A stretch of DNA of 64,000 nt from a virus: positions 1 through 64,000 of IMG/VR virus record IMGVR_UViG_3300028831_000505, one strand, 5' to 3'. Each line of letters begins with the position of its first letter. The first letter of the stretch is position 1. The notes below the pieces were generated by a model. That model saw only the letters and a program-made list of their open reading frames with translations. It was not told where the DNA came from and did not search any database. Positions 6,207 to 58,772 of this stretch are shown piece after piece. Made by a program: the position numbers and the translations under genes.

Positions 6207-6517
6207 CCTACGAGCTGAGCGACGCGGAACGGGCAGCGCTGGCCAAGATCAATGAGGGTTACGCCCAGCTCCTCCAAACCGGCTGGAAGCCCATGGTCTA
6301 TGTGACCAGCTCGAACGGTATCAATCTGCTTGTCATCGAACCCGGTTCAGGCGGCGTGCACAGCGCCCGTTGCCTCCACGGTCACTGGTTTGAAATAACT
6401 CCTTCCCGGCGCGACGCCCAGGGCTTTGCCATTGGTGGCACCGTCACCCCTATCAACCCCATCTTGTACCGCGTTCCCGAAACCAGCGGAGACCCCAATG
6501 CTCAAAAACGAGAATAA
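6203..6517 (+). CDS. Hypothetical protein, 104 aa
   Basis: The gene is ATGA-coupled to the SNF2 helicase. The N-terminus is helical and followed by a small beta-rich domain (VYVTSSNGINLLVIEPG). No motif recognised. The last 20 bases overlap the start of the ParA-like gene, which fits tight co-expression. Confidence 0.65.
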   Translation: MTYELSDAERAALAKINEGYAQLLQTGWKPMVYVTSSNGINLLVIEPGSGGVHSARCLHGHWFEITPSRRDAQGFAIGGTVTPINPILYRVPETSGDPNAQKRE

Positions 6518-7217
6518 GCTACCCGTTATCATCGTCGTGGGCGCGGACAAGGGTGGCGTCGGCAAGACCTTCCTGACCCGCTCCTTGCTGGACTATCTCG
6601 CGGCCAATACCAAGGCCGCCGCCTCCGGCAAAATCCGCGTGTTCGACAGTGAGCCCGGCGGCGCGGGCTTGAAGCACTTCCACCCCACCGCCAAGCTGGT
6701 CAACTTCGACCTCATGTCCGATCAGGCCAAGATCCTCGACGGCTTGACCTCGGAAATGTTAACGGTGCTCGACTGCCGCGCCGGCCTCCTGTCGGTCTTC
6801 CTGAAACGGTTTGCCGCGCTCGGACTCATGAACGACGTCAAGCAGGGCCGCGTCGAGCTGGTTGTCAAGCATGTGCTGGGCAACACCATCGCTTCCCTCA
6901 GCGAGATCGCCGACACGGCGGCTATCCTGGCCGACGGCGGCCACCACATTCTGGTGAAAAACCCGGCGCGTGACGCCCACTTCTTTGCCTGGGACAAGGA
7001 AACCGAGAAGCGGTACTTCGACATCATTGCGCCCGCCGACCTGATCACCTTGGACCACATGGACGGCGCAGTGGCCGAGTTGATCGACAAGGCTGCCATG
7101 CCAATGCGGCAGTTCATCAATGATCCCAGCTTCTCGGACACCTACCGGCGCGAGGCCAGCCGCTGGTATGAGAACACGGCGGCCGAGTACACCCGCGTGG
7201 GGTTCAACAACCTGTAG
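6498..7217 (+). CDS. ParA/MinD-superfamily ATPase (orphan)
   Basis: The product is a 239-aa P-loop ATPase with the deviant Walker A ADKGGVGKT (residues 16-24), whose first lysine is the signature of the ParA/MinD/VirC1 group. The start ATG 6498 follows CAGCGGAGACC and lies within the previous gene; the preceding in-frame codons belong to that overlap. The Walker B region is degenerate (RVFDSEPGG and MLTVLDCRAG). The C-terminal half resembles MobD/StbB-type ParA relatives more than plasmid ParA. No ParB or centromere-like array is visible beside it. Possible roles are positioning of phage DNA or of a replication compartment, or plasmid-like maintenance; all are inference. Confidence 0.8.
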   Translation: MLKNENKLPVIIVVGADKGGVGKTFLTRSLLDYLAANTKAAASGKIRVFDSEPGGAGLKHFHPTAKLVNFDLMSDQAKILDGLTSEMLTVLDCRAGLLSVFLKRFAALGLMNDVKQGRVELVVKHVLGNTIASLSEIADTAAILADGGHHILVKNPARDAHFFAWDKETEKRYFDIIAPADLITLDHMDGAVAELIDKAAMPMRQFINDPSFSDTYRREASRWYENTAAEYTRVGFNNL

Positions 7218-9054: not shown

Positions 9055-9657
9055 ATGGATTTGCGCATGAGACGTTCGCGCCGCCGCAACCGTGCACCCT
9101 GGGTGAAGGTTGACATATGGGAACCGACCTGGAGCCCTGAGATCGTCGGTTGGTCCGTCAACTTCTACAACAGAAACAAGTGGCGCTTCGACAGCAAGGA
9201 CCGCTGTGATCCGGTCATGACGGTCGACGACCTGATGCAGGAAGCCTACATCATCTTTGAGCGCGTCCGCGCCAGCTACCCGCGCGTGATTGACCCGCGC
9301 CATTTCATGGCCCTTTACAAAACCTCCATCCAGAACGACATGACCGACAGGTCGCGGCTTGAGCGCAAACGGGACGCAACCATTGAGGATTTGGGGGAGG
9401 ATGCCTCCTCCGCGCTCGCGGGTCGTATGGACGACGAGAGTGGTTATCTGGCTGTGCTCCTCAGTGAGATGCCCCGAGAGGTTCAGTTGCTGATCGCCGG
9501 CATGCAAAGGGATGACGTTGCGGTGGCACTGCGCGAGCCCTATGAGAAGGACGAAGCCGGTGTCAGGAGCGAAACCTTTGGAGAACGTCTGTGCCGTCTC
9601 ATTGGCATTGACCCGGCAACCCGGCCGCTCCAACAGTTGCGGGAATTGCTTGCGTAA
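9055..9657 (+). CDS. Possible sigma-factor-like protein, 200 aa
   Basis: Residues from about 55 to 105 read DDLMQEAYIIFERVR, then FMALYKTSIQNDMTDRSR. This resembles sigma70 region 2 (DLxQEAxxxxxR, and the later helix ending in Arg residues before the linker). A second helical section near the C-terminus could be a region 4 relic, but the helix-turn-helix is not clear. A basic N-terminus (MRRSRRRNR) precedes it. Starts at 9022 and 9067 are also possible; TTGGG precedes 9055. If correct, it would redirect host RNA polymerase to phage promoters. The assignment rests on pattern only and could be another helical protein. Confidence 0.55.
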   Translation: MDLRMRRSRRRNRAPWVKVDIWEPTWSPEIVGWSVNFYNRNKWRFDSKDRCDPVMTVDDLMQEAYIIFERVRASYPRVIDPRHFMALYKTSIQNDMTDRSRLERKRDATIEDLGEDASSALAGRMDDESGYLAVLLSEMPREVQLLIAGMQRDDVAVALREPYEKDEAGVRSETFGERLCRLIGIDPATRPLQQLRELLA

Positions 9658-9690
9658 AACGACAATCCACCACCCCAGGAAGGAAGGCCC

Positions 9691-10431
9691 ATGGCTCAAT
9701 TCATCTACGACGATACCGAGCTCACTGCTGTCGAGCAGGAGCTGACCGAATCCGTCAAGTTCGAGGCGAAGTCAAAATACAAAACCCGGCAGGACTATCT
9801 GGCCGACCTCGGCAAGGCGGTGAACAAGATCGAGGACGCGGACTACGAGAAGCTGAGCGATCCCGCCGTCGAGTGGATGCAGTCGGCGCTGCCGGCAATC
9901 AAGGCGGGCGACACCATTCCTGACTTTCCCGACTATGAAGCGAAGGAAGGCGATGACGCCCCGGGCGAGGAGGCCGGCGACGGTGAGGGCGAAGGTGAGG
10001 AAGCCGGCGATGGCGAGAACTCGGAGCAGGAAGAGACCCCGCCTGCTCGAGGCCGTCAGCGCCAGCAGGCCGCCGCCCCCGCCAAGGGCAGGGGCAAGCC
10101 GGACAAGAAGGCCGCGGCCAAGGCCCCCGCCACCAGCAAGGGCGGGAAGGGCACGGCCAAGACCGGCGGCCCCAAGCGGCTGTTCAACGACAACCGCAAA
10201 CGCGACCGGTTCGGCCTCGTTGTGGGCAGCAAGGTGGCGAAGGCCGTTGCCCTGTTCGCTGGGGGCAAGGGTGCGACGATGCGGCAAGTTATCGACAGCA
10301 CGGGCGGACCGCAGAACAACGTGCTCAAGAAGCTGGCCGATGCCGGCCATCAGGTCGAGCGCTTCGGCGGCAACGTGATCAAGGTCACCCACAAGGACGA
10401 CATCAAGTCCGGCGCCAAGGGCAAGCGGTGA
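9691..10431 (+). CDS. Possible nucleoid-like DNA-binding protein, 246 aa
   Basis: The protein has four distinct parts. Residues 1-80 form a helical domain. An acidic stretch follows (about 85-112, GEEAGDGEGEGEE). Next comes a Lys/Arg/Ala/Pro-rich segment (about 115-165) resembling histone H1-like tails. The C-terminal domain (about 172-235) contains TMRQVIDSTGGPQNNVLKKL, which looks like a winged-helix motif. A strong ribosome binding site (AGGAAGGAAGG) precedes the ATG, suggesting high expression. I infer a DNA-coating or architectural role in replication; no specific family is identified. Confidence 0.6.
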   Translation: MAQFIYDDTELTAVEQELTESVKFEAKSKYKTRQDYLADLGKAVNKIEDADYEKLSDPAVEWMQSALPAIKAGDTIPDFPDYEAKEGDDAPGEEAGDGEGEGEEAGDGENSEQEETPPARGRQRQQAAAPAKGRGKPDKKAAAKAPATSKGGKGTAKTGGPKRLFNDNRKRDRFGLVVGSKVAKAVALFAGGKGATMRQVIDSTGGPQNNVLKKLADAGHQVERFGGNVIKVTHKDDIKSGAKGKR

Positions 10432-11000
10432 CGTTCACCGGAGGCGCGCTGCTCAAGGGCGTTCCCGTCAAGGTCAGCGCCGCATCTGCCCGGCTGCGCT
10501 TCATCCCATGCGGCCCCGTGTGCATTGCGCGGGGCTGCACGGCCAAGTGCTGCGACGCCCCTGGTGACCCTGTAGGCTGCAAGGTCTACGCCCACGAGTC
10601 GGAAGCCCCGGCCATCCGACGGTTGGGCGTCAAGGTAAAGGATGGGTTCATCCAACCCCGGTCAGGCGAGCGGGTGTGCCCGTTCAAAACCAAGGGCCAT
10701 TTGTGCTCACTGTTCAAGAAACCAGAACGGCCCATGGGATGCATCGTGTCCCCATTCGCCTTGAACCGAACCGGGACCTTGATTATCCGCAACCGCTACA
10801 AGCTGCACCTGCCCTGCTATGACCCCGAGGGGGGCCAGCCCGCCTATAAGGTGTTTCGAAGCAGCCTTGTGCCCCTATTTGGCGAGGGCGAGGTAGAGCG
10901 CCTCACCAAGCACCTGGACGCGGGCGGGGGTGACGTTTCATGCTATGCGAACCGTAAGGTTTACCACATGATGGTGCACCGCGAGGAGGCGCTCGGCTAG
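10428..11000 (+). CDS. Cysteine-rich metal-cluster protein, 190 aa
   Basis: The GTG start overlaps the previous stop by four bases. The product has about eleven cysteines, including CGPVCIARGCTAKCC in the first 45 residues, VCPF and LCSLF near 80-90, GCIVSPF and PCYD. The spacing resembles the CxxxCC-type (YkgJ-like) zinc or iron-sulfur binding proteins, though it is not a clear match. The reaction is unknown. Phages often carry relatives of this kind in early regions. Confidence 0.65.
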   Translation: MTFTGGALLKGVPVKVSAASARLRFIPCGPVCIARGCTAKCCDAPGDPVGCKVYAHESEAPAIRRLGVKVKDGFIQPRSGERVCPFKTKGHLCSLFKKPERPMGCIVSPFALNRTGTLIIRNRYKLHLPCYDPEGGQPAYKVFRSSLVPLFGEGEVERLTKHLDAGGGDVSCYANRKVYHMMVHREEALG

Positions 11001-12302: not shown

Positions 12303-12724
12303 AAGAGTTTTCCCCGTCATGGAAGGAAGCCACCGCTGCGCTGATTGCCAAACTGGCGGCGTGGCGTGAGCCCGACTTCCACAAGGACCAGCAGCTTTCA
12401 GACGAGGTGCTGATTGCCGATGGATGGGTTCCCACCCAAGACGCCGAATTCGCCGGCGGCGTGGCTTGGAGGCACGGCCCCTTGACTGTCTCCGAAACTC
12501 AACGCCCCCACGTCCTCTATGACATGAGGCCAGCCTTGGGGGTGATCCCCCGCCTCTGCCAAGTCGTCCTGATGATCCCACCCAGCCTGCCCATCGCCGA
12601 CGTGAACGAAACCTGTTGCGTCCTGCAAGCAGCAGGCCGCACCGTGGGCTATGGCAGTTCGCTCAACCCCCAAATTGCGGTGCTGATCGCAGCGCTGCGT
12701 GCAAAGGAGAGATTAGGTGAATAG
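12299..12724 (+). CDS. Hypothetical protein, possibly phage ABA-sandwich type, 141 aa
   Basis: ATG 12299 overlaps the methyltransferase stop (ATGA). The C-terminal segment GYGSSLNPQIAVLIAALRAK resembles the end of the small phage ABA-sandwich domain, in which a catalogue of residues precedes a final helix. The match is loose. No catalytic motif is apparent. The gene overlaps the clamp-like gene by eight bases. Confidence 0.6.
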   Translation: MKEFSPSWKEATAALIAKLAAWREPDFHKDQQLSDEVLIADGWVPTQDAEFAGGVAWRHGPLTVSETQRPHVLYDMRPALGVIPRLCQVVLMIPPSLPIADVNETCCVLQAAGRTVGYGSSLNPQIAVLIAALRAKERLGE

Positions 12725-13781
12725 GGCACAACTCGTCGACATCCTCGACATTCTCAAGCCAGCGCTTGCGGGCAATACTCCCGTGCAGCTCTACACCTGC
12801 TACTGCTTCGTCAAGGACAAGGTCTACGCCTACAACGACCGTGTCGCGATTGTGGCCCCCTGCAAAGTCAACATGACCTGCGCGCTGCACGGCGGCACCC
12901 TCTATGGCTGGCTCAAGAACAGCAATGCGGATGACGCCGACTTCGACCTCACCGGAAACGAGGTGGTGCTCACCGCGGGCAAGAGCAAGATCAAGCTGCC
13001 CTACCACGAGATGGGTGACCTCCTTTTCGAGGGGGTGCAGGACAAGGACAAGGACAACAAGTGGTTGGTGACCGCCGATGTCGATGAGGCGCTGCTCGCC
13101 GGCCTCGAGGTCTGTACTAGCACCACCAGCCGCGACCTCACACAGATGGCGCTGACATGCGTCTACCTGATGCCCGGCAAGCTGTCATACTTCTACTCGT
13201 CCGACAGCGACTCGCTCACTCGCTACTTGGTGACCGCCAAGGCAACCGAGCAAGGCACCTTTGCCATCCCCAACAATTTCTGCGAGGAGGTGGTCAAGCT
13301 GGCCACCCGGTTCAAGGGTGAGGAGGGCCTTCTCAAGGCCACGTTGTCCGTCAACGACGACTGGGCGCGGGTGCGTTTCGAGAACGGCGTGACCGTGTGG
13401 GGGCGCATCCTGGACGTGCCTAGCCCCATTGACTTTGCGGCCATGCTCAAGTCGAAGGAAAAGGGCATGCCCCCCGCTGTGCCGCTGCCGCAGGGCCTGC
13501 AAGAAGCGTTGGCGCGGGCCTGTGTGCTGGCTGATCCTGAAAGCAAGCCCACGGAGTTCACCATCAAGGGCAACAAGCTTGGGATGTTCACCCAAAGTTC
13601 CATGGGTGAGGCCACCGAGTCGTTGCTCATCCGGGGTAAGCACCCCGACGCCGAGGCGTTGGTGAGCGCCCAGCTTGTGGCCCGTGCCATCAAGGCCTGC
13701 GACGAGTTCTCAATTGCACCCAGCGGCACGCTCTACCGTAACGGTAATTCCCTGCTACAGTTTGTCGCCAATATGGGCTAG
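12717..13781 (+). CDS. DNA sliding-clamp-like protein (DnaN fold)
   Basis: The 354-aa product is close to the length of bacterial DnaN (about 366 aa), which has three similar domains of about 115 residues that form a ring dimer around DNA. Patterns such as VYAYNDRVAIVAP near residues 38-50 and the alternating strand/helix texture fit that fold. The phage clamp loader and polymerase lie downstream, which supports the call. The start is GTG 12717. Sequence similarity to cellular DnaN is weak by eye, so a structure comparison would be the deciding test. Confidence 0.7.
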   Translation: MNRAQLVDILDILKPALAGNTPVQLYTCYCFVKDKVYAYNDRVAIVAPCKVNMTCALHGGTLYGWLKNSNADDADFDLTGNEVVLTAGKSKIKLPYHEMGDLLFEGVQDKDKDNKWLVTADVDEALLAGLEVCTSTTSRDLTQMALTCVYLMPGKLSYFYSSDSDSLTRYLVTAKATEQGTFAIPNNFCEEVVKLATRFKGEEGLLKATLSVNDDWARVRFENGVTVWGRILDVPSPIDFAAMLKSKEKGMPPAVPLPQGLQEALARACVLADPESKPTEFTIKGNKLGMFTQSSMGEATESLLIRGKHPDAEALVSAQLVARAIKACDEFSIAPSGTLYRNGNSLLQFVANMG

Positions 13782-13815
13782 GGTGCCTTTGGGCGACTGA
13801 GCAAGGAATTTGACC

Positions 13816-14361
13816 ATGCTAACCTTGGGGCGTGACTGGACGGAGTTTTTTCGGCTAAGCAAACGCGAATACTTTGCTGACTTCTTTATTACCCCTCCGG
13901 TTACGGCCCTCATGGTTGGCCTTTCCCTGTACAAGGGGGCCAGCTTGCGGTGGCCATTATTCTTTGGCCTCGGAGTGTTGGCGTGGACCCTTTACGAATA
14001 CCTCATGCATCGCTGGGGGCTGCACCAAGTGTGGGGGCTGCGTGTGCTGCATGCCATGCACCACAAGAACGACAGGGATTACATTGCCACGCACCCGGCC
14101 ATAACCGTGGCCGCTTATATCGGCTTCTGGTTCATGTTTGGTGTGACCAGTAGCGCCTTCGCGGCCGGCTTCTCGGCGGGCTACGTGATCTACGCAGCGA
14201 TGCACACGCTGTACCACTACACCACCATCCTGCCCGGCGATTGGTTGTTCGGGCTCAAGCGGCGTCACGCGTTGCACCACCGGTTCGAAACTTACAATTT
14301 TGGTGTCTCAACCCCGCTCTGGGACATCGTTTTTCAAACCTCCTACCAACAGGGAAAATGA
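13816..14361 (+). CDS. Fatty acid hydroxylase / sterol desaturase superfamily membrane enzyme
   Basis: This is a membrane-bound di-iron oxygenase-like protein. In the 181-aa product four histidine clusters are visible: HRWGLH (65-70), HAMHH (79-83), HTLYH (130-134) and HALHH (151-155). That is the hallmark of the fatty acid hydroxylase superfamily (sterol desaturases, FA 2-hydroxylases, carotenoid hydroxylases). Hydrophobic segments surround them (about 25-60 and 95-128). The length is short but enough for the catalytic core. The substrate is unknown; hydroxylation of host membrane lipids is the simplest inference. The start is ATG 13816 after GCAAGGAATT; a TTG two codons earlier is less likely. 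It sits between clamp and polymerase genes, so it is probably expressed early, as an auxiliary metabolic gene. Confidence 0.85.
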   Translation: MLTLGRDWTEFFRLSKREYFADFFITPPVTALMVGLSLYKGASLRWPLFFGLGVLAWTLYEYLMHRWGLHQVWGLRVLHAMHHKNDRDYIATHPAITVAAYIGFWFMFGVTSSAFAAGFSAGYVIYAAMHTLYHYTTILPGDWLFGLKRRHALHHRFETYNFGVSTPLWDIVFQTSYQQGK

Positions 14362-14364
14362 AGC

Positions 14365-14568
14365 ATGGCCGCTTTGCGCGACCCCTACGATGGGGAGCCA
14401 TTCTATTGTGTGACGTGCAGCGCAGGCTATGGCGAGTACGCCGCCTGCGAGGACGTTGCGTGTCAACTCGAGTCGAAGGCTGCGGCAGAAGCCCGTAAGG
14501 CCAAGCGCAGGCCGATCGGGTCCGATCTGCAACGCGCGTTGCAGACACAACGAGAGAAGGAAAGGTGA
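14365..14568 (+). CDS. Small Cys-rich protein, 67 aa
   Basis: The protein has CVTC and, 12-18 residues later, CEDVAC, which together could hold a zinc ion. The rest is a basic helix (AAAEARKAKRRP). The gene starts four bases after the hydroxylase gene ends and shares its last base with the next ATG. Function unknown. Confidence 0.65.
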   Translation: MAALRDPYDGEPFYCVTCSAGYGEYAACEDVACQLESKAAAEARKAKRRPIGSDLQRALQTQREKER

Positions 14569-14813
14569 TGGGCCGCTTTGAAGGAAGTATCGCCACAGGC
14601 TTGACCGCCACGGGGACACGGACCTACGTCAACGCGTCGAATACGGACCACCCCAACCTGATACTGCGGGACCTCATAACCCTCGAAATGAGGGCCAACG
14701 CGCTTGGCCTCTACCCGGCTGCCCGTGCGTTGAACAACGCGAAGAACGCGATTGGCTGGCAACTGGCCGGCGACATTGGGAAGGCCGACGCCGCATCCAC
14801 GCACCGGCTCTGA
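14568..14813 (+). CDS. Small hypothetical protein, 81 aa
   Basis: ATG 14568 is preceded by GAGAAGGAAAGG; a GTG three bases earlier is an alternative. The protein is helical in its second half (LRDLITLEMRANALGLYPAARALNNAKNAIGW). No family recognised. Confidence 0.6.
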   Translation: MGRFEGSIATGLTATGTRTYVNASNTDHPNLILRDLITLEMRANALGLYPAARALNNAKNAIGWQLAGDIGKADAASTHRL

Positions 14814-14816
14814 CCC

Positions 14817-15008
14817 ATGGCAGAACCGGAACGCTACTGCGGCTCGAGCGCGGCCTTCCACGAATGCAGATTTGCTGGCCCGGAGCTACCAATCTGCGCC
14901 GCTTCGGCAACGGCCCACTACGCTTGCCAATATCACCACAAAGGATTTGGCAAACCACCCATCCTTGAACCTATTGTCGTCCGCGCGCCATCTGGAGCTT
15001 GCGGCTGA
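14817..15008 (+). CDS. Small Cys/His-rich protein, 63 aa
   Basis: The product has several Cys and His residues (ERYCGSSAAFHEC, ICAASATAHYACQYHH), suggesting a metal site. It starts three bases after the previous gene. The final 15 residues lose this character, and a sensible-looking C-terminus (ending with ELAADEIERLTAL) continues in another frame. The two may be one protein split by a frameshift. Confidence 0.45.
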   Translation: MAEPERYCGSSAAFHECRFAGPELPICAASATAHYACQYHHKGFGKPPILEPIVVRAPSGACG

Positions 15009-15051
15009 CGAGATTGAGCGCCTAACCGCCTTAACAGCAGGTCAAAAATGA
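14872..15051 (+). CDS. Overlapping frame, possible C-terminal part of the 14817 gene
   Basis: This frame ends SARHLELAADEIERLTAL, a plausible helical C-terminus, and its stop overlaps the next ATG (ATGA), as expected of a real gene end here. No ATG precedes it outside the gene at 14568; TTG 14872 is the only reasonable start. I list it as either a small gene with a TTG start or the displaced end of the 14817 gene, with the shift near 14955-14970. Confidence 0.35.
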   Translation: MLARSYQSAPLRQRPTTLANITTKDLANHPSLNLLSSARHLELAADEIERLTALTAGQK

Positions 15052-15305
15052 GCACAACACTTATCGCCGGCATCAGGGCAATCGACGAGGTGGCGCGCCG
15101 CGCCAACATCAACGAACCTTTTACCATAACAGTGGAATTTCGGGACCCGGAGCTCGCGGAGTCCTTCATGATACAGGTTAAAGTCGAAATCGATAGTGAG
15201 GGGCTAGTCACCCCCAAGGTGGTCAGCACTTCGGCCAATTACCACCAATTACAAATTCTGGGCCTGCTTTTTCGTATAAAAAGGGGTAGCCCCGCAAAGG
15301 CCTAG
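15048..15305 (+). CDS. Small hypothetical protein, 85 aa
   Basis: The ATG overlaps the preceding stop by four bases. The product is a small alpha/beta protein (FTITVEFRDPELAESFMIQVKVEID) with a basic end. No motif recognised. It directly precedes the DNA polymerase gene. Confidence 0.65.
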   Translation: MSTTLIAGIRAIDEVARRANINEPFTITVEFRDPELAESFMIQVKVEIDSEGLVTPKVVSTSANYHQLQILGLLFRIKRGSPAKA

Positions 15306-15317
15306 AGCGCCCCGCCC

Positions 15318-18005
15318 ATGGGTTTTTTGTTTACCACGCCTCAGCAGCAGCCCAAGGGGCCGCCCAAGCAGCGCACGGGCCGCGCTGCGGGCGGCGTGGG
15401 GCCTAAAACGGCCGCCAGTGCCGCCACCTTGAACCGGCTGGGGTGTTCAGCCTGCCCGCTCAACGACGCCAAGGTCAATAGTCCCAAGATGCCGGCCTTC
15501 CTTCCTGTTAGGCCGTGTGACATTTACTTCCTTGCCGAGGCTCCGGGCGAAACAGAGGACCGTGAAGGGGAACCCTTAATTGGGAAGTCCGGCCAGTTGC
15601 TGCGCAGCCTCATCCCCAAGCGCTATGAAAATACCTGTGCTTACGACAACGTTGTGCGGACCCGCCCGCCCAAGAACCGCGACCCCACCTGGGTTGAGGT
15701 CGAGTGTTGCCGAGGTCACCACACCAAAAGCATCGAGAAGGCCAAACCCCGGTTAGTAGTTGGCCTGGGGAAATTCTCCCTCAACGCCGTGCTAGGCTCC
15801 ATGGATATGCAAGGCCTGCGCGGTCGTATGTTCGCGGTCAAGTTTGGCAACCACTCCTGTTGGTTCATGCCAACCTATCACCCGGCCTTTATCCTGCGGC
15901 AGGCCTATGACGACAAGAAGCCCCTGCTCTCGCGGATGGGCCATTGCTTCAAGATGGACATCAGGCGGGCCTTTGATGTGCTGGACGGGCTCAAGCCCCC
16001 GCGCATCCAAACAGAGGCAAGCATCAGGGCCGACATCCTGACCTTTGACGGGTCCGAACCCGGCCACTTCGAGCGGTTAATGAACTTGCTCATCGTAGCG
16101 CAGCAGGTCCCCGAAAAATCAGTCGACTACGAGACCCAAGGCTTACGCCCGTACAGGAAGGACTCCGCAGTCCTGACCTGTGCAATCAGCTATGACGACC
16201 CGGACGCGGGCGAGGCGCATTTCTCATTTGCCCTGGATCACCCCAAGGCCAAGTGGACCAAGGTGCAACGCAAGGCTATTGGGGCAAAGCTGCTCGAAAT
16301 TCTTAGCGACGACACCTTCAAGGTTGCCCACAACGTACCGTTTGAGGTCGAGTGGTCCATCTTCATGTATGGCGCCGCCCATGTGCGTCACGGGGCTTGG
16401 GACTGCACAATGATGCAGGCTCACTTCCTGGACGAGCGCCGGGGCAAGCAGTGGCGTGACGATGACCGCCGAGCGGCCTATCAGGACCTTGACTTCCTCT
16501 GCCGCCAGTATTTTGGTGTGGGCTACAAGTCGTTCTTTAAGCTGAACAAAAAGAACATGGCCGGCGCTGATCTGGGCGAAACCCTCATCTATAACGCTGC
16601 CGATACCAAGGTCGCATTGTGGCTGCACCGCGTGCAAGTAGCCCTGCTGAAACGGCGTGGCCTCTATGACGCTTACCTCGACTCGGTCCAGCGCCAGCCT
16701 GCCACGGCGTTGATGCAACACTTTGGAATACCCGTAAATCAGAAGGCCGTGGTACGCAACGGGAAACGTCTCAAGGCTGAGATTGAAGAGATCGAGGATG
16801 AGATAAACGACCTCAGGGTGGTGAAGGATTACACCCGGGACTATGGGGAGTTTAATCCGGGGTCGAACCCTGACGTTTTGAAGGTGTTCAAGGATTACCT
16901 CAAGCGGTCCGAGATAAAGGTTCCCAAGAAGTACCACAAGCCGGGGGAGAGTGAGTTTGAGTACTCGGTCGACGAGGCGGTGCTCAAGGAAATAGATCAT
17001 CCCCTGGCCGAGCTGGTTCTTGCCTTTCGTAACCGCAGCAAATTGAAGTCCACCTATTGCGACGGGCTGGACATGCGTAACTACGACAACCCGCAGTACA
17101 AGAAACGGGTGGTCATCCACCGTGACGGGCTGGCTCACAGTTCGTTCAACATGACGTTCACTGAAACCGGCCGCACCAGTTCTGACGATCCCAACCTTCA
17201 AAACTTCCCCAAACACAAAGACGCGTGGATACGCAACGAGATCTGGGCGCCCCCCGGCTATGTGCTGGTGGCGGCGGACTACAAGCAGCTTGAATTCTGC
17301 GCCGCGGCCTGTTGCAGCGGGGATAAAGTGCTGATCGACGCCGTTTGGAGCGGCTACGACGTGCACATGGATTGGGCTGAGCGGCTATCGGCGCGCTACC
17401 CGCAGGCGGTGGGCGGGCTCAAGTTCCGCAAGGACAAGGACGTAATGAAGGCGCTGCGCCAAAAGGTGAAAAACAAGCTGGTGTTCCCAGCTATCTTTGG
17501 CGCTCAGGACGACTCCATTGCGGGCTACCTCGATATGCCTGAGGACGTCATTGGCAAAGTCATGAACGACTTCTGGAGCATCTTCCACGGGATCAAGACG
17601 TGGCAAGATGAGATGATGCAAGGCTACTACGATGAGGGCTACGTCAGCACCATGAATGGGCGGTTGCGCTGGTACCCGTTGAACCGCAACCAAGCGATCA
17701 ACCACCCAGTGCAGGGCTCGGCCTGCGAAATCGTCTGCGACGGCATGACGCGCCTCTCGAAGCAGGCTGTGGAAACCGAGCAGTGGCACATCCACCCGCG
17801 CATGAACATTCACGACGACCTGTCGTTCTTGATACCCGACGACAACAACCGGGTGTTTGAGGAGTCGGTTGAGACCATCTACAAAGGAATGTTGAGTTGC
17901 CCCTACAAGTGGATCAACGTGCCGCTGGCCGTTGAGTTATCGGCCGGCGTTCACTGGGCAGAAATGGAAGCGTTTGGAAACTTCTCAAGCCACAAGGATC
18001 TCTGA
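15318..18005 (+). CDS. Family A DNA polymerase with N-terminal UDG-like domain
   Basis: This is the phage replicative DNA polymerase, 895 aa. Residues about 35-230 resemble family 4/5 uracil-DNA glycosylases: CSAC (43-46), AEAPGETEDREG (73-84), NVVRTRPPKNRDP (111-123) and YHPAFILR (187-194). The Fe-S cysteine expected in NVVxC is Thr115, while Cys130/131 remain. A 3'-5' exonuclease follows (VDYET 269-273, HNVPFEVEW 338-346, a late Asp near 429). The polymerase part has motif A DYKQLEF (654-660), motif B RQKVKNKLVFPAIFGA (714-729), HPVQGSACE (796-804) and motif C IHDD (831-834). It therefore looks active for synthesis and proofreading. Whether the UDG-like domain binds or excises uracil is unclear, given the altered metal ligand. 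Confidence 0.93.
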   Translation: MGFLFTTPQQQPKGPPKQRTGRAAGGVGPKTAASAATLNRLGCSACPLNDAKVNSPKMPAFLPVRPCDIYFLAEAPGETEDREGEPLIGKSGQLLRSLIPKRYENTCAYDNVVRTRPPKNRDPTWVEVECCRGHHTKSIEKAKPRLVVGLGKFSLNAVLGSMDMQGLRGRMFAVKFGNHSCWFMPTYHPAFILRQAYDDKKPLLSRMGHCFKMDIRRAFDVLDGLKPPRIQTEASIRADILTFDGSEPGHFERLMNLLIVAQQVPEKSVDYETQGLRPYRKDSAVLTCAISYDDPDAGEAHFSFALDHPKAKWTKVQRKAIGAKLLEILSDDTFKVAHNVPFEVEWSIFMYGAAHVRHGAWDCTMMQAHFLDERRGKQWRDDDRRAAYQDLDFLCRQYFGVGYKSFFKLNKKNMAGADLGETLIYNAADTKVALWLHRVQVALLKRRGLYDAYLDSVQRQPATALMQHFGIPVNQKAVVRNGKRLKAEIEEIEDEINDLRVVKDYTRDYGEFNPGSNPDVLKVFKDYLKRSEIKVPKKYHKPGESEFEYSVDEAVLKEIDHPLAELVLAFRNRSKLKSTYCDGLDMRNYDNPQYKKRVVIHRDGLAHSSFNMTFTETGRTSSDDPNLQNFPKHKDAWIRNEIWAPPGYVLVAADYKQLEFCAAACCSGDKVLIDAVWSGYDVHMDWAERLSARYPQAVGGLKFRKDKDVMKALRQKVKNKLVFPAIFGAQDDSIAGYLDMPEDVIGKVMNDFWSIFHGIKTWQDEMMQGYYDEGYVSTMNGRLRWYPLNRNQAINHPVQGSACEIVCDGMTRLSKQAVETEQWHIHPRMNIHDDLSFLIPDDNNRVFEESVETIYKGMLSCPYKWINVPLAVELSAGVHWAEMEAFGNFSSHKDL

Positions 18006-20371: not shown

Positions 20372-20578
20372 ATGTTCGGCGGCGCAGAGGGTTTTAATTA
20401 CTTGCCCCTGCTGTACGCATCGGCAGCGGTTCTTGTTCTGATCATTGCCTTCATCTTGGCCTGCATGTTTCACCGTCAGGTCATCAAGGGCAAAAAGGAA
20501 GTTATCGACTACGCAGCCCAACGGCTGGCAGCAAGGCGCGGCGGGCAGGGCGGAACTGAACCCACGAGAGGAAGTTGA
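20372..20578 (+). CDS. Small single-pass membrane protein, 68 aa
   Basis: Residues about 10-32 (LPLLYASAAVLVLIIAFIL) form one membrane helix, followed by a basic cytoplasmic tail (QVIKGKKEVIDYAAQRLAARR). It sits between a 47-aa gene and the ssDNA-binding protein gene. Possible roles include membrane anchoring; nothing specific can be said. Confidence 0.65.
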   Translation: MFGGAEGFNYLPLLYASAAVLVLIIAFILACMFHRQVIKGKKEVIDYAAQRLAARRGGQGGTEPTRGS

Positions 20579-20580
20579 TC

Positions 20581-21972
20581 ATGGCGAAGCGCGAATTCAA
20601 ATACAAGCCCCGCTCGGCGGAGGACGTCCGTGAGCGGGCCAACCAGCAGTCGGGCAACTTCGACCGGTTCATGCCCGACAACGTGAAGATGTTCAAGCCG
20701 CGCGACGGCAAGAACATCATCCGTGTCCTTCCGCCCACTTGGGACGGCGCCAAGCACTTTGGCTACGAACTGTGGGTGGTGTATGGCGTGGGGGCGGACA
20801 ACCAGTCCTACCTCTCGCCATCCAAGATGAGGCAGGAGGACGATCCAATCGAGGAGATGCGCAGGGAACTCACCGAGGACCGTAACGAGAAGGCCGCCAA
20901 GTCGCTGACCCCCAAAAAGCGCGTCGGCATCTACCTGATCGACCGCATGGCCGAAGACGAGGGCGTGCAGTTTTGGGCCATGCCTTGGACCCTCGACCGC
21001 GACATTGCCAACCGCTGCTATGACGAGGACACCAAGGACGTCATCATGATCGATGACCCCGACAATGGCGCCGACGTCAGGTTTTACAAGGAAGGCACCG
21101 GCCGCAACACCGAATACAATGCGGCTAGGATCACGGTGCTTAAGGACTCGCCCCTCAGCGACGACAAGCGCACCATGAACGACTGGCTTGCCTACGTCGA
21201 AGACAACCCCATTCCCGAGAAGCTGGTGTACTACCCCTATGACCACCTGAAACGGGTGGTCGCCGGCACCGCCACCAAGAAGCCCGACGAGGATGACGCC
21301 GACGTGCTTGGGCGCGGCCGTGCTAGCCGCGAGGAAGAGCGTGGGCGTGGCGGGCGCGGTGGCCGCGAGGAGGAGCGGGGCCGGGGCACCCGTGACCGGG
21401 GCGACGAGCGCGGCGGGCGCAGCCGTGAGCCGGAGCCTAATCCCGAGGAAGATCGTGGCACACAGCGCGGCGGCCGTGGCGGCCGGGACGACCCGCGTGA
21501 CGATGACCGGCGCGGCGGTGGTGAGCGCAGCCGCGCCCGCCCGCGCCTCGACGAGCCGGACAACGACTCTGAGCCGGAACCGGAACCCGAGGATCGGGGC
21601 CGGGGGCGCACCCGGCGCGAGGAGCCCGAGCGGGGCCGTGATCGCGATGATCGAGGAAGTGACAGGGGCGAGGAACGCGGCGGCAGCGAGCGCAGCCGCA
21701 CCCGTGCCCGTCTCGAGGACGACCCCGCCGACGATGACCGCGGTGGTGGACGGGAACGCAGCCGGAGCCGCGACGATGATCGCGGCGAGGACCGGGGCGG
21801 GCGCCGTGAGCGTAGCCGTGCCGAGCCCGAGGAAACGGAGCGCGAGGCGCGTGACGATGACCGGCGGGGTGGCCGTGATCGTGACCGTGACCGCGAGGAT
21901 GACCGGGGCGGGGGCAAGGGGGGAAGTGTGCTTGACCGCATGCGTGCCCGGCGCCGTGACCCGGCCGATTGA
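20581..21972 (+). CDS. gp32-like ssDNA-binding protein with long RG/RD/RE-rich tail
   Basis: The 463-aa product has two unlike halves. Residues 1-about 230 have the texture of phage T4 gp32-type ssDNA-binding cores: a basic N-terminal arm, GKNIIRVLPPTWDG (43-56), and a mix of strands and acidic helices. Residues about 235-463 are almost wholly Arg, Gly, Asp and Glu (for example GRGGRGGREEERGRG), with no hydrophobic core, so they are disordered. Ordinary ssDNA-binding proteins have a short acidic tail; this one is about 220 residues and mixed in charge. The tail contains two internal copies of the recurring motif (RARPRLDE and RTRARLEDD). The ATG 20581 follows CGAGAGGAAG. Binding of ssDNA in replication and recombination is the inferred role; the tail may drive self-association. 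Confidence 0.75.
   Translation: MAKREFKYKPRSAEDVRERANQQSGNFDRFMPDNVKMFKPRDGKNIIRVLPPTWDGAKHFGYELWVVYGVGADNQSYLSPSKMRQEDDPIEEMRRELTEDRNEKAAKSLTPKKRVGIYLIDRMAEDEGVQFWAMPWTLDRDIANRCYDEDTKDVIMIDDPDNGADVRFYKEGTGRNTEYNAARITVLKDSPLSDDKRTMNDWLAYVEDNPIPEKLVYYPYDHLKRVVAGTATKKPDEDDADVLGRGRASREEERGRGGRGGREEERGRGTRDRGDERGGRSREPEPNPEEDRGTQRGGRGGRDDPRDDDRRGGGERSRARPRLDEPDNDSEPEPEPEDRGRGRTRREEPERGRDRDDRGSDRGEERGGSERSRTRARLEDDPADDDRGGGRERSRSRDDDRGEDRGGRRERSRAEPEETEREARDDDRRGGRDRDRDREDDRGGGKGGSVLDRMRARRRDPAD
21301..21960 (+). repeat. Low-complexity region encoding Arg/Gly/Asp/Glu-rich tail
   Basis: About 660 bases of strongly biased sequence (recurring CGCGGCGG, CGTGACC and GAGGAGCG-like words) encode the disordered tail. 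The order of words is irregular, so it is not a simple tandem repeat. Such DNA is prone to copy-number change between isolates and to assembly error. Confidence 0.8.
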
Positions 21973-30956: not shown

Positions 30957-31346
30957 TTACTTCTTTGCCGCGTAGGCTTTGCGCAAGTTGTCAAGCAGGT
31001 AGAAGCCCAGCACCGCCATGACGATCTTCCACAGGTTGTCGTCCAGCGCGTCGGTGTGCCCCTGCGTCCATTGGCCCAAAGCCTTATCGTAGATAAAGAT
31101 TTTGGCCAGCAGGAACACAACCGGCAAAGCCAATCCTGCCCTCACAACTATATTCAGACGGGACTGTCCCGCCTCGGCAACCATCACCTGCTGTCTCATG
31201 CGCAGGATTTGAATGTTCTCGTCAGCCTGGATGCGCTCGGCGTCCGTGGTGGCGACAAGCTTCTTGTTTTGCCATTCGATTATCCCGGTGGTGATAGCCT
31301 GCACCGGGTTGGCAATAGCCTTGATGAAACCAAAGATCTCGAACAT
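30957..31346 (-). CDS. Holin, 3-TM gene-transfer-agent type
   Basis: The 129-aa product has an N-terminal amphipathic section (FGFIKAIANPVQAITTGI), a charged helix, and hydrophobic segments at about 68-86 and 106-122. This layout resembles the holin family described as three-TM holins for gene-transfer release, common in alphaproteobacterial phages and gene transfer agents. It should permeabilise the inner membrane at the end of infection. The family call is by pattern. Confidence 0.65.
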   Translation of the reverse strand: MFEIFGFIKAIANPVQAITTGIIEWQNKKLVATTDAERIQADENIQILRMRQQVMVAEAGQSRLNIVVRAGLALPVVFLLAKIFIYDKALGQWTQGHTDALDDNLWKIVMAVLGFYLLDNLRKAYAAKK

Positions 31347-54695: not shown

Positions 54696-55277
54696 ATGTC
54701 AACAAGGATCACAAGGATGGATGAAAAGTTGGACCTTCCCACCCGCATTCGAATCCTTCTTGCTCAAGGACCAGCCAAAGACGACTGGACTTCCCAGCTT
54801 GAGGAGATCTTTGGATGCGCCAAGGGTTTCCTTGCAGACCCCAAACTGTCTGAGGTTGAGGTCTTCCAAAACCTCAGCAGGCCAGAGTGGGGGCAATTCA
54901 CCGTCAGCCAAAACGACGAGGGGCTAACAGCCACGTGGCTCCGCACTGACGGCGGGCCGCCTGTTGCTGTGCAGTACCTACGCGAGACTAGCCGGGACGG
55001 CGCCGTGTTCGTTGTTCTACAGGCCCTATTGGCTCACGCTTTACAGGAGCAGGGTCTGGGAACTTACGTCGATGTGAGGACGCCGAACTGGCGACGGGCA
55101 AGGGTCGTGGTTAACGGCAAAGAAATGGAGGGGGTTGTGCGGGCGTGCGCGGTGACTGGATTTTGCGAAGTTATAACACCGAAGTCGAAGGTTGGACCCG
55201 ACAACAGGCTGGCCACACAAAAACTACGGGGCTTGGTGACCATCACCTTCGATAAGGTCGACAGGACCTTCTTCTGA
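54696..55277 (+). CDS. Hypothetical protein, 193 aa, alone on the plus strand
   Basis: The reading starts at ATG 54696, or at ATG 54717 (MDEKLDLP), which has ACAAGG upstream. The protein is alpha/beta with LTATWLRTDGGPPVAVQYL and a helical section (VFVVLQALLAHALQEQGLG). It ends FDKVDRTFF. Its 3' end overlaps the end of the convergent gene at 55224 by 54 bases. No family recognised. The position interrupts the usual portal-protease order. Confidence 0.6.
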   Translation: MSTRITRMDEKLDLPTRIRILLAQGPAKDDWTSQLEEIFGCAKGFLADPKLSEVEVFQNLSRPEWGQFTVSQNDEGLTATWLRTDGGPPVAVQYLRETSRDGAVFVVLQALLAHALQEQGLGTYVDVRTPNWRRARVVVNGKEMEGVVRACAVTGFCEVITPKSKVGPDNRLATQKLRGLVTITFDKVDRTFF

Positions 55278-55793
55278 AAGCCACTCGGCCGTTGGTAGGC
55301 CGAACGTTTCGGCCGTCCATCCGGAGAACGACCTGAGGCATTTGGCAAGCTCAGCGGCTTGGTCGTTCCACGCCTTCCTATAATGCTGTGAAGCCGTCCA
55401 TGGAACCCCACGCACAAAGTGCCCGCCGTCAGTAGTCATCGGGATGCCACAGGCGACAATCCTCGTTGCCTTAGCCCTGAACCGCGCCACGTTGACGGCG
55501 AGCAGCCCCGAGGAGCCGCCCGTATGTGGAATCTGTTTGAAGGGCAGATTGAAATGGCGCTTCCGGTGGGCGGCTGTCCATAACACAGGGTCATGGTAGT
55601 CGTTCTTGCGCCGTGCTTCCAGCCATCGGTTCATCTTCTCAGGGTGCATGGTGCACCAGTGGTCAACCGCGGGCAGATTGATTGCAATATCGTTTGCGGC
55701 CACCACCACATCGGGTTTGAATAGCTTGGTGGCCAGCTCTATTTCTTTCCAGACACACTCAGCACCGCCAATCACCAGTGCTTTCATCGCCAA
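55224..55793 (-). CDS. Rossmann-like protein of the glycosylation cassette, 189 aa
   Basis: The opening KALVIGGAECVWKEIELA (4-21) looks like a nucleotide-binding Rossmann strand-loop-helix, followed by VVVAANDIAI and DHWCTMHPEKM. Such a layout occurs in small sugar- or nucleotide-related phage proteins near glycosyltransferases. The exact activity is unknown. It is the last gene of the minus-strand cassette that starts at 58772, and overlaps the next by ten bases. Confidence 0.6.
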   Translation of the reverse strand: MAMKALVIGGAECVWKEIELATKLFKPDVVVAANDIAINLPAVDHWCTMHPEKMNRWLEARRKNDYHDPVLWTAAHRKRHFNLPFKQIPHTGGSSGLLAVNVARFRAKATRIVACGIPMTTDGGHFVRGVPWTASQHYRKAWNDQAAELAKCLRSFSGWTAETFGLPTAEWLSEEGPVDLIEGDGHQAP

Positions 55794-56491
55794 TTCTCCT
55801 TAACCCATGGATAGTTATCCGCCACCCCAGGCGTCCACGGATCAAACTTGCCGTGAAAGAACACAGCGCGGGCATTTGAAGGCAAGGCTGTCCGACCAAG
55901 GCGAATAAAATAGTTACGGAAGCTGTAGATTCCGTCAGCCTCGCCCCACGTGGCCTCCTTTGGGCCAAGGACATGGCTGATCCACGCCTGATCCGAACCA
56001 ACTATCCCGGCCAAGGCCGTTATGCCGGGGGACTGCCTTGGGTCGAACTCGTCCCACACCCGTTGCCGGGCGCCCGGGGTGAGCAACATCATGGAGCCGT
56101 TGTAGAAGGTATTCTTGGCCGTGTCGCCCCAAGCAATGAAGTCTTCCTTGCGTGAAGCCAACGGGGTCATATCCTTCACAATGACCGAGTCGAGGTCCAG
56201 TGACAGAATGCGGTTGCCAAAGATAGGAATGACCTCGGACGAGAACATGCGCAGGCGCCGGTAGCAGTTGGGTTTGTTGTTTGGGCGGGAGAGCGGGGCA
56301 ATCTCGTCCCACAGCGGTACTACCTCAACCCGGGGATCAATCCCTACAGGGTCATCGGTGGCGCAGATGAAGCGGTGTGGCATGTGGAGGTGTCGTTCGA
56401 CCATGTTCCGCAGCACATTCACATGCCGCGCCGTGAACACCGACCGGTAACCGGGCTTGGCCTGCCACTTCCACGTAACTACGGACAGCAT
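55784..56491 (-). CDS. Glycosyltransferase, GT-A type (GT8-like), 235 aa
   Basis: It has the metal-binding D-x-D in RILSLDLDSVIV (D99, D101), preceded by a Rossmann-like N-terminus and PNNKPNCYRRLRMF. Later, NGSMMLLTPG (130-139) and VFFHGKFDPW match GT8-like enzymes, which transfer a hexose from a nucleotide sugar. Donor and acceptor are unknown. Confidence 0.75.
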   Translation of the reverse strand: MLSVVTWKWQAKPGYRSVFTARHVNVLRNMVERHLHMPHRFICATDDPVGIDPRVEVVPLWDEIAPLSRPNNKPNCYRRLRMFSSEVIPIFGNRILSLDLDSVIVKDMTPLASRKEDFIAWGDTAKNTFYNGSMMLLTPGARQRVWDEFDPRQSPGITALAGIVGSDQAWISHVLGPKEATWGEADGIYSFRNYFIRLGRTALPSNARAVFFHGKFDPWTPGVADNYPWVKENWR

Positions 56492-57381
56492 TGAGGCTCT
56501 CCAAAACTTCCCGCAAGGATCTCGTCCATCAGGACGTCAAAGATGAAGGCTCCATTTCTGCCAGCCGGCAGAAAACGGCAGCCATAATAAGCGGGCAGCG
56601 TCCAGCCAACGGTAGTCTCAAGCAGGCGCCACGGTCCGCCCTCCCCGTCACGCACAAGGTCAATGCCGGCCCAGGTCAAATTGTGCTCCACAGCTATCTG
56701 TTCGCCAAATGCAAGGGCGCTCAGCGCCTCTTCCTCTGGAAGGACAATTGGCAAGGTCAGGCCTGACCCCGACGCCATGGGTCGATCCGGCCGGTTGCCA
56801 CGGCGCATCATGAGGCGTCCGGTTTTGCCAATGAACAGAATCCTAAAGTCGTTGTCGTTTCCAGGACAGAACTTTTGCCAGATCAAATAGTCCTTCTGCC
56901 TGAGGCCATACTGACCCTTGATGCCGCCCTTATGGAACACATTGTGGGCTTCGCCAGCCGCCTCACGTGCCGTTTTGATCAGCCGCACATTGCGTGAGCC
57001 AGAACCAATCGAGGTTTTGGATATGAATGGGTACTGAGCCGTTTTGGCGTGGGCCATGGCGTCATCGTAGTTCTCAAACACTCTTGTCTCGGGCATCCAC
57101 CGCTTAAAAACCTTTGCCTGACGAAGTTTGTCATCGTAAAGGCGTGCCGAAGCGGCGTCCGGGATCACCACAAACTCCGGGCGCGCGGCGAATCTAGCCA
57201 CAAGATCCTTATCCTTCCTGCGGCGGCCGGGGCTATTGTGCATATGGATAAAAATGTACCCACTTTCCCCTTCAAGTGGGTCGTCCCTTTTGAAAAGCTT
57301 GGCATTCCACCCACGTTGACAAGCCAGGGTATAGAGCAGCAGGCCCCAACCACTCTCGTCGTTGTAGACAAACAGCCTCAT
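56479..57381 (-). CDS. ATP-grasp ligase-like protein (RimK type), 300 aa
   Basis: The start at 57381 (MRLFVYNDESGWG) was chosen because it overlaps the upstream gene by four bases; an earlier in-frame codon lies inside that gene. ATP-grasp features are FISKTSIGSGSRNVRL (119-134), a glycine-rich loop with the Lys, then IWQKF (167-171), FRILFIGKTGRLMMRR (179-194) and AGIDLVRDGEGGPWRLLETT (238-257). ATP-grasp enzymes form amide or ester bonds through an acyl-phosphate. The last Asn of the usual (E/D)xN is replaced by Thr. Substrates unknown; it may join an amino acid or a peptide to a sugar or protein. Confidence 0.75.
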   Translation of the reverse strand: MRLFVYNDESGWGLLLYTLACQRGWNAKLFKRDDPLEGESGYIFIHMHNSPGRRRKDKDLVARFAARPEFVVIPDAASARLYDDKLRQAKVFKRWMPETRVFENYDDAMAHAKTAQYPFISKTSIGSGSRNVRLIKTAREAAGEAHNVFHKGGIKGQYGLRQKDYLIWQKFCPGNDNDFRILFIGKTGRLMMRRGNRPDRPMASGSGLTLPIVLPEEEALSALAFGEQIAVEHNLTWAGIDLVRDGEGGPWRLLETTVGWTLPAYYGCRFLPAGRNGAFIFDVLMDEILAGSFGEPQCCP

Positions 57382-58103
57382 GCCTGCGCAGCCCAGTCGA
57401 TCTCGCTCCACGGGAAGGTAAGGTTATGAGGAGTGGGGTCTTTCGCGATGAGAGCACGTGCTTTTTGCACCCCCTCGCGGTCCATCTGCTGCTTGCGCAA
57501 GTAATTTGTTGTGGAAGCGTCAGGTACGACTTCGCGACCAACGCGAATGACCGGGTAGCGGAGCATGATGGGCTCACCCGTTCCACGGACCACACGGTCA
57601 CGAAATTCCCCATCTGAGCCATAAAATCCTGAGAATCGCTCATCGTAACCCCCGATTCGCTGGAAAACGGCCCTTTCCATGAGCCAAGTGTTGGGATGAG
57701 GCTTGTAACTATGCATCTCTGGGGCCGAGACGCGTTGGAATCGGAAGGCTCGACCAGCCTCCAGCTCGTGAGAAAGCACCGCTTGAGCCGTGCGTTCTGG
57801 CACCAAATGATCAATATCGGTCATCAGAATCCAGTCAGTTCGGGCCTTTTCAGCCCCTAGATTCCGGCAAAACAGCCAATTCCAGCGCACATCCACGCCA
57901 CATCTGAACAGCCGTAAGCTGCCAAAGCCTGGATTGCTGGTAATTCTGGCTATCTGATCGGGGGAACCGTCATCGACCACGATGAGGTCCCAGCAACCCA
58001 GCAGCCCCGGCCCCCACGCCCGCATATGGTCAAGCTGCGCGGTGAGCATTCCAGGATTTCGATAGTACGGGAGGATCAAGGTAACCCGGCGACGCGCTTC
58101 CAT
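57378..58103 (-). CDS. Family 2 glycosyltransferase, 241 aa
   Basis: The protein has the GT2 core: LILPYYRNPGM (9-19), LIVVDDGSPDQ (40-50) and WILMTDIDHLV (90-100), where D95-x-D97 is the metal site. GGYDERFSGFYGSDGEFRDR corresponds to the acceptor-side region. It probably transfers a sugar from a UDP- or GDP-sugar. It overlaps the ATP-grasp gene by four bases. Confidence 0.85.
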   Translation of the reverse strand: MEARRRVTLILPYYRNPGMLTAQLDHMRAWGPGLLGCWDLIVVDDGSPDQIARITSNPGFGSLRLFRCGVDVRWNWLFCRNLGAEKARTDWILMTDIDHLVPERTAQAVLSHELEAGRAFRFQRVSAPEMHSYKPHPNTWLMERAVFQRIGGYDERFSGFYGSDGEFRDRVVRGTGEPIMLRYPVIRVGREVVPDASTTNYLRKQQMDREGVQKARALIAKDPTPHNLTFPWSEIDWAAQA

Positions 58104-58112
58104 GTGTCCTGC

Positions 58113-58772
58113 CTAAACCTGTTCCCCGTCCCTTCGACGAAGAAACATGCCCATATGCCCTAGATCTATGGCATGCACCCCCGCCCGCGCAAGTTCCCAA
58201 GCCAAAACCGTGGCGGTAGCCCCGAGACACAGTATGACCCGCCGTTTCTCGGGGCGCAGGCGCGCGACCAGCGCGTTATACTCAACATAGGCGTGTCTGA
58301 CCGGGGCAATGACCTCTTCAACGCTGGCGGCGCCCGGCATGCGTTCAGGCAACAACGATTTGCCGCCCCCGCGCACCAGCACCACGTCAAGGCCGCGCCA
58401 GAGGCTGCGCACCTTCTCCCAATAGGGCGGGGTATCAATCCACGGGGCTGAGTCCGGCCGGCTCACAAATGACGACCCGTAGATCCACGTCGGGTCGTAG
58501 AGGTTCGTGTATTTTGGTGCCGCGTATTGCCCCCAGAACACGTGCTTGGGCGTTGTGCTCATGACGTTGGGGATGCAAACCAGACATTCCTTGGACCTCG
58601 ATTTGAGGATAACACGCAGCTTCTCGCAAAGCTCAGGGTGAAAGTCCTGTGACTTGGCCGAGTGCCCCAACGCAAGCTTTAGTTCTCCATCGCCGTAGCG
58701 CGACATCGACTGCCCAGCCAGCACCATATCCAGCGTTTGCCTCTCGTCGATAACGTTGGGGTAAGCTGGCAT
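58113..58772 (-). CDS. GT-D-fold glycosyltransferase-like protein, 219 aa
   Basis: The signature SMSRYGDGELKLALG (22-36) with R25-Y-G-D-G-E matches the GT-D family (formerly DUF1792), found in bacterial glycan synthesis such as the third glucosyltransferase of serine-rich repeat proteins. A segment VFWGQYAAPKYTNLYDP follows. It is the first gene of the cassette; AGGAAA precedes its ATG on the minus strand. Confidence 0.75.
   Translation of the reverse strand: MPAYPNVIDERQTLDMVLAGQSMSRYGDGELKLALGHSAKSQDFHPELCEKLRVILKSRSKECLVCIPNVMSTTPKHVFWGQYAAPKYTNLYDPTWIYGSSFVSRPDSAPWIDTPPYWEKVRSLWRGLDVVLVRGGGKSLLPERMPGAASVEEVIAPVRHAYVEYNALVARLRPEKRRVILCLGATATVLAWELARAGVHAIDLGHMGMFLRRRDGEQV

Follow-up and report, generated by a model that had tools for sequence, protein, structure and literature searches.

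Tailed phages attack the host cell wall and punch holes in its membranes. Among bacterial enzymes that modify lipids, rhizobial OlsE has been assigned to the FA_hydroxylase superfamily. OlsE hydroxylates the ornithine head group of ornithine lipid (PMC3972451). Yeast Scs7 and mammalian FA2H are sphingolipid fatty acid 2-hydroxylases of the same superfamily, in which two metal ions, O2 and two electrons are used for lipid oxidation; both carry an N-terminal cytochrome b5 domain, which the plant enzymes do without (PMC10002949).

Here we describe a phage gene of this type in a stretch of 64,000 nucleotides from the IMG/VR virus record IMGVR_UViG_3300028831_000505, the whole of which we call the window. 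An ATG-to-TGA frame at 13816-14361 on the plus strand reads as a protein of 181 amino acids, hereafter P0001. The features of the gene and its surroundings are as follows.

12717..13781, + strand: DNA polymerase sliding clamp, left neighbour (PHROG 947, 9.8e-24)
13803..13807, + strand: AAGGA, probable ribosome-binding site, 8 bases 5' of the ATG (sequence)
13816..14361, + strand: FA_hydroxylase-superfamily membrane protein P0001, stop codon included (ORF, Pfam, alignment, model, fold match)
14008..14025, + strand: histidine motif 1, HRWGLH (H65-x4-H70), at the inner end of helix 2 (alignment, model)
14050..14064, + strand: histidine motif 2, HAMHH (H79-x2-H82-H83) (alignment, model)
14080..14097, + strand: phage-clade signature YIATHP with the extra invariant H93 (alignment)
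14203..14217, + strand: histidine motif 3, HTLYH (H130-x3-H134), at the inner end of helix 4 (alignment, model)
14266..14280, + strand: histidine motif 4, HALHH (H151-x2-H154-H155) (alignment, model)
14365..15305, + strand: three small frames (14365-14568, 14565-14813 and 15048-15305) between hydroxylase and polymerase, no family match
15318..18005, + strand: DNA polymerase I-type, right neighbour (PHROG 17, 9.4e-98)
30957..31346, - strand: holin-like protein with three transmembrane segments, marking the phage's own lysis region (PF11351, 4.2e-5, 24.5 bits vs a cut-off of 24.8)

The first of the small frames (14365-14568) begins 3 bases past the hydroxylase stop and encodes 67 amino acids with a C-x2-C-x9-C-x4-C pattern, for which zinc or iron binding is conceivable; its operon-like position led us to consider it as an electron donor, for which we found no support. 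Elsewhere in the window, a frame at 20575-21972 resembles a T4 gp32-type single-strand DNA-binding protein extended by a very long tail rich in Arg, Asp and Glu, and a cluster of minus-strand frames at 55224-58772 has the look of glycosyltransferase genes together with one for an ATP-grasp enzyme, possibly a surface-sugar module. Positions 2-59 are 95-100% identical to the ends or edges of unrelated Chryseobacterium, Klebsiella and Enterococcus phage records, and look like technical sequence, such as an adapter, and not like DNA of the phage.

The membership of P0001 in the FA_hydroxylase superfamily is far beyond chance. The protein scored 64.3 bits (E 2e-17) against Pfam FA_hydroxylase PF04116, and 64.7 bits in a second scan, which is about twice the curated cut-off of 31 bits, and this was the sole domain found in the Pfam scan. 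A phmmer search of the PDB gave yeast Scs7 as the sole meaningful match (9e-5); the sole NCBIfam match, to SemiSWEET, was dismissed as meaningless. Ten histidines (H65, H70, H79, H82, H83, H130, H134, H151, H154 and H155) were invariant in all 34 sequences of an alignment that takes in distant bacterial homologues. The AlphaFold2 model built with these 34 homologues (mean pLDDT 91.3, pTM 0.85) has four membrane-length helices (residues 22-39, 45-71, 94-108 and 110-135) with the histidine clusters at their inner ends, as well as two short helices (73-84 and 145-156) that bear motifs 2 and 4. Scs7 was again the sole significant match of the model in Foldseek (E 5e-6), and VIA-align superposed the two (4zr0) with a Z of 16.4 (rmsd 2.8, 177 residues, 27% identity), the next-best match being stearoyl-CoA desaturase at a Z of 5.2. 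The original prediction had read the gene as a di-iron hydroxylase-like membrane protein with four histidine clusters in superfamily order, and had proposed a comparison of its predicted structure with the FA2H-type fold: the clusters are present and align with the motifs of Scs7, the fold matches Scs7 along its whole length, and the protein is of the di-metal FA_hydroxylase type, the metal site being probably di-iron. Positive charges are commoner in the N-terminal and histidine-bearing segments than in the loops of the opposite side, which fits a cytosolic metal site; P0001 would then lie in the inner membrane, with the ten-histidine site facing the cytosol. The protein is very probably an active lipid oxygenase.

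Eight relatives of P0001, 48-56% identical to it, came from six uncultivated viral contigs (L001, L002, L003, L011, L104 and L105, all from IMG/VR) and from two putative prophages on contigs of Beijerinckia sp. L45, one with an integrase nearby (L005) and the other with tail and lysis genes (L055). All nine phage proteins group in a single clade (100/100 support) on a long stem. They are further set apart by an eleventh histidine, H93 in the motif YIAxHP, which is invariant in nine of nine phage-clade proteins and absent from the bacterial homologues in the alignment. Searching DNA for the pattern HHx4[DE]YIAxHP recovered the known viral loci and added L104 and L105 as genuine members; matches in L100 and L102 were due to chance, in unrelated frames reading HHHGHREYIALHPEW. 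The expectation that such oxygenases are uncommon in phages was borne out, as tblastn searches of 50,697 phage records with P0001, its L002 relative and a clade consensus gave no match even at E 10, one with a protein of the second lineage described below gave none either, and a PHROGs search with P0001 found no matching family. The search of other phage genomes that had been recommended yielded its eight clade relatives from outside those records. Across samples of 298 genomes from the family of this Beijerinckia, 397 from its order and 385 from its class, phage-type genes were found in that one Beijerinckia only. Within family and order, the bacterial homologues that came next reached 93-134 bits with A2, the first phage profile, and the class-wide sample (385 genomes) held no homologue past E 1e-25 apart from that Beijerinckia genome. 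This distribution suggests that the hosts of the phage clade are Hyphomicrobiales. Host assignment by capsid was abandoned: the best Hyphomicrobiales match was the L055 Beijerinckia contig itself, at 39%, and a Burkholderia phage matched better, at 51%.

The two Beijerinckia copies are informative about how the gene travels. Their proteins are 86% identical, and DNA similarity (82%, L005 7962-8492 vs L055 9086-9616) covers exactly this gene and nothing beyond, with a dN of 0.099, a dS of 0.716 and a dN/dS of 0.14 for this one pair. Similarity confined to the gene, together with the low dN/dS, points to a cargo gene that is exchanged singly and kept under purifying selection. A comparison of the surroundings of the first seven loci is in keeping with this, the hydroxylase being the one gene common to all seven and the other neighbours mostly unrelated. 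At the selected stretches where the window was compared with its relatives, almost nothing else was in common: ParA-like ATPases of the window (6480-7214) and L002 (7185-7907) are 34% identical, a tail-region gene of the window recurs in L005 (60%), the window's capsid protein has a distant relative on the L055 contig (36-39%), the L003 contig gives a weak helicase match (24%), and L105 and L011 have one small gene in common (48%). A clade linked through shared neighbours was rejected, none of the ParA-like, small and tail-region genes being clade-wide. The hydroxylase gene passes alone between phages that probably infect Hyphomicrobiales. As a side observation, the ParA-like gene of L002 lies directly 5' of the hydroxylase, which might point to partitioned, plasmid-like prophages, and L005 carries adjacent DprA-like and phosphoribosyltransferase-like genes (47-1581) near its integrase, possibly a defence pair.

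Another recurrent feature of these loci is the proximity of endolysin genes. The stop codon of a GH25 endolysin overlaps the hydroxylase start in L001 (TGATG), as does that of a GH19-type endolysin in L104/L118 (ATGA), while in L003 an M15 endolysin lies 1.0 kb upstream and in L055 one of the GH19 type lies 2.4 kb upstream. An endolysin is thus found within 2.5 kb of the hydroxylase in four of nine clade members, the window copy not among them, and none was identified beside the gene in L002, L005, L011 or L105. A rough binomial estimate, with a distance limit picked after the data were seen, puts the chance of at least four such cases in nine at 6e-4 to 1e-2. Adjacency is also seen in a second lineage of hydroxylases, from Hyphomicrobiales genomes and scored among the bacterial rows (L032, L038 and L041), all three of which adjoin GH19-type endolysins. 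The wider stretches of this lineage hold baseplate and tail fibre proteins in L123, which make at least L123 a prophage, and a tail protein in L122, with no tail match in L121. Support for the second lineage as sister of the phage clade (45/69) was too weak to claim. Given this weak support and the same position beside endolysins, phage use of this enzyme family there may have arisen more than once. Lysis regions are, at the same time, common landing sites of unrelated cargo genes, and for this reason endolysin adjacency is not proof of a role in lysis. In L011, a protein with a transglycosylase domain is encoded 3.6 kb from the hydroxylase, and the region 9484-10569, about 1 kb after the hydroxylase, weakly matches a high-potential iron-sulfur protein (PF01355, E 0.0057, short of the cut-off), a possible electron donor.

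How the protein sits in the membrane, what reaction it carries out, on which lipid, with which electron donor, when, and to what effect on lysis, we infer along the following lines. P0001 would be an integral inner-membrane monooxygenase with four membrane helices and a di-metal, probably di-iron, centre, taking O2 and the electrons of a host donor, which is assumed because no redox partner for P0001 is evident in the window. Its target would be a membrane lipid of the infected cell, whose hydroxylation could alter how the envelope packs or how permeable it is, mostly in time with the lysis programme; in the window phage, whose gene sits in an early-type strand block, the modification may start earlier. 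We tentatively read the purpose as remodelling of the envelope, linked chiefly to the lytic programme, and give this slightly less than an even chance. Blocking of other phages, support of a membrane-linked replication site and easier lysis had all been put forward as roles; the genomic context favours lysis, through four of nine clade members and three of three in the second lineage, and speaks against the replication site. Counting against the lysis reading, hydroxylation can stabilise membranes instead of weakening them (PMC10002949). Rather doubtful is a role as a lysis accessory in the strict sense, whereby Hyphomicrobiales phages would combine their endolysin with an oxygenase in the membrane that alters membrane or outer-envelope chemistry, so that holin, endolysin and spanin then open an envelope reinforced with hopanoids and long-chain lipids, or so that oxygen supply times lysis.

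The window copy itself lies among replication genes, as had been noted, between clamp and polymerase and on the same strand, about 17 kb from the holin-like gene, which is on the opposite strand, and outside the lysis block. While this position could be taken to mean that the hydroxylase supports a membrane-linked replication site, Vibrio phage OPA17 has the same order of clamp, polymerase and clamp loader, with a clamp about 26% identical to that of the window, and there clamp and polymerase are separated by 2 bases, without a hydroxylase. Nor did any of the eight relatives in the clade turn up beside replication genes, so the location stands but a functional meaning for it is not supported, and we regard a replication role as very improbable. 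The abutting clamp and polymerase of OPA17 make the hydroxylase segment look inserted into a conserved replication block, loss of the hydroxylase elsewhere being a possible alternative. Equally improbable is that P0001 is no longer a lipid oxygenase and has become a structural membrane protein, for example a holin-like one: its small size, four membrane-length helices and the nearby lysis genes would suit this, but all ten ligands are invariant in nine phage proteins of only 48-56% identity, and the dN/dS of the one pair is 0.14.

The strongest rival to lytic envelope remodelling is superinfection exclusion or lysogenic conversion, in which hydroxylation of an envelope lipid (e.g., an acyl chain or an aminolipid) would make rivals adsorb or inject poorly, or render the lysogen stress-tolerant. 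Two copies do lie in prophage-like Beijerinckia contigs and L123 is a prophage, the gene moves singly as other phage cargo genes do, the window copy is outside the late block and hence could act before lysis, and hydroxylated ornithine lipids aid stress resistance in related bacteria (PMC3972451). The overlaps of hydroxylase start and endolysin stop, however, argue for late joint expression in at least two phages, as opposed to autonomous expression from a prophage, and we consider exclusion or conversion possible but on balance unlikely. General membrane homeostasis, with fluidity or permeability tuned and the cell kept productive until lysis, while lysis timing and other phages are left untouched, would be compatible with early and late gene positions alike, and in eukaryotes lipids interact more strongly with one another when they bear 2-hydroxyl groups (PMC10002949); it leaves the repeated endolysin adjacency unexplained, and we think it distinctly unlikely. 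Both lytic envelope remodelling and its rivals now have concrete test genes in the two copies of one Beijerinckia genome, and HHx4[DE]YIAxHP provides a diagnostic motif for finding further members.

Compared with known systems, P0001 is like yeast Scs7 and mammalian FA2H in its fold (Z 16.4), in the order and spacings of the four histidine motifs and in the layout of four transmembrane segments, but differs from them in being only 27% identical, in its length of 181 amino acids and in lacking the cytochrome b5 domain. The nearest bacterial sequences are chromosomal FA_hydroxylase proteins of Hyphomicrobiales, annotated as 'sterol desaturase family', the aligned ones sharing 29-40% identity with P0001; unlike the phage proteins they fall outside the phage clade, are without YIAxHP and stand in varied chromosomal contexts. 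OlsE, compared by description only, is a lipid hydroxylase from the same bacterial order. Among viruses, the fatty acid hydroxylases of giant viruses belong by name to the same superfamily, have eukaryotic hosts and gave weak structural matches (best E 0.014), as did A0A6J5T0W1 (E 0.93), 94 aa long, named 'fatty acid hydroxylase' and hence also of the superfamily by name, from an uncultured Caudovirales phage. The literature searched, with partial coverage, yielded no report of the gene in tailed phages. The enzyme family is already known, and the full-length hydroxylase clade in tailed phages is one for which we found neither a report nor a database family. If our reading is right, a host-lipid-modifying enzyme, kept intact in otherwise different phages and often placed by endolysins, would be a new element of envelope control.
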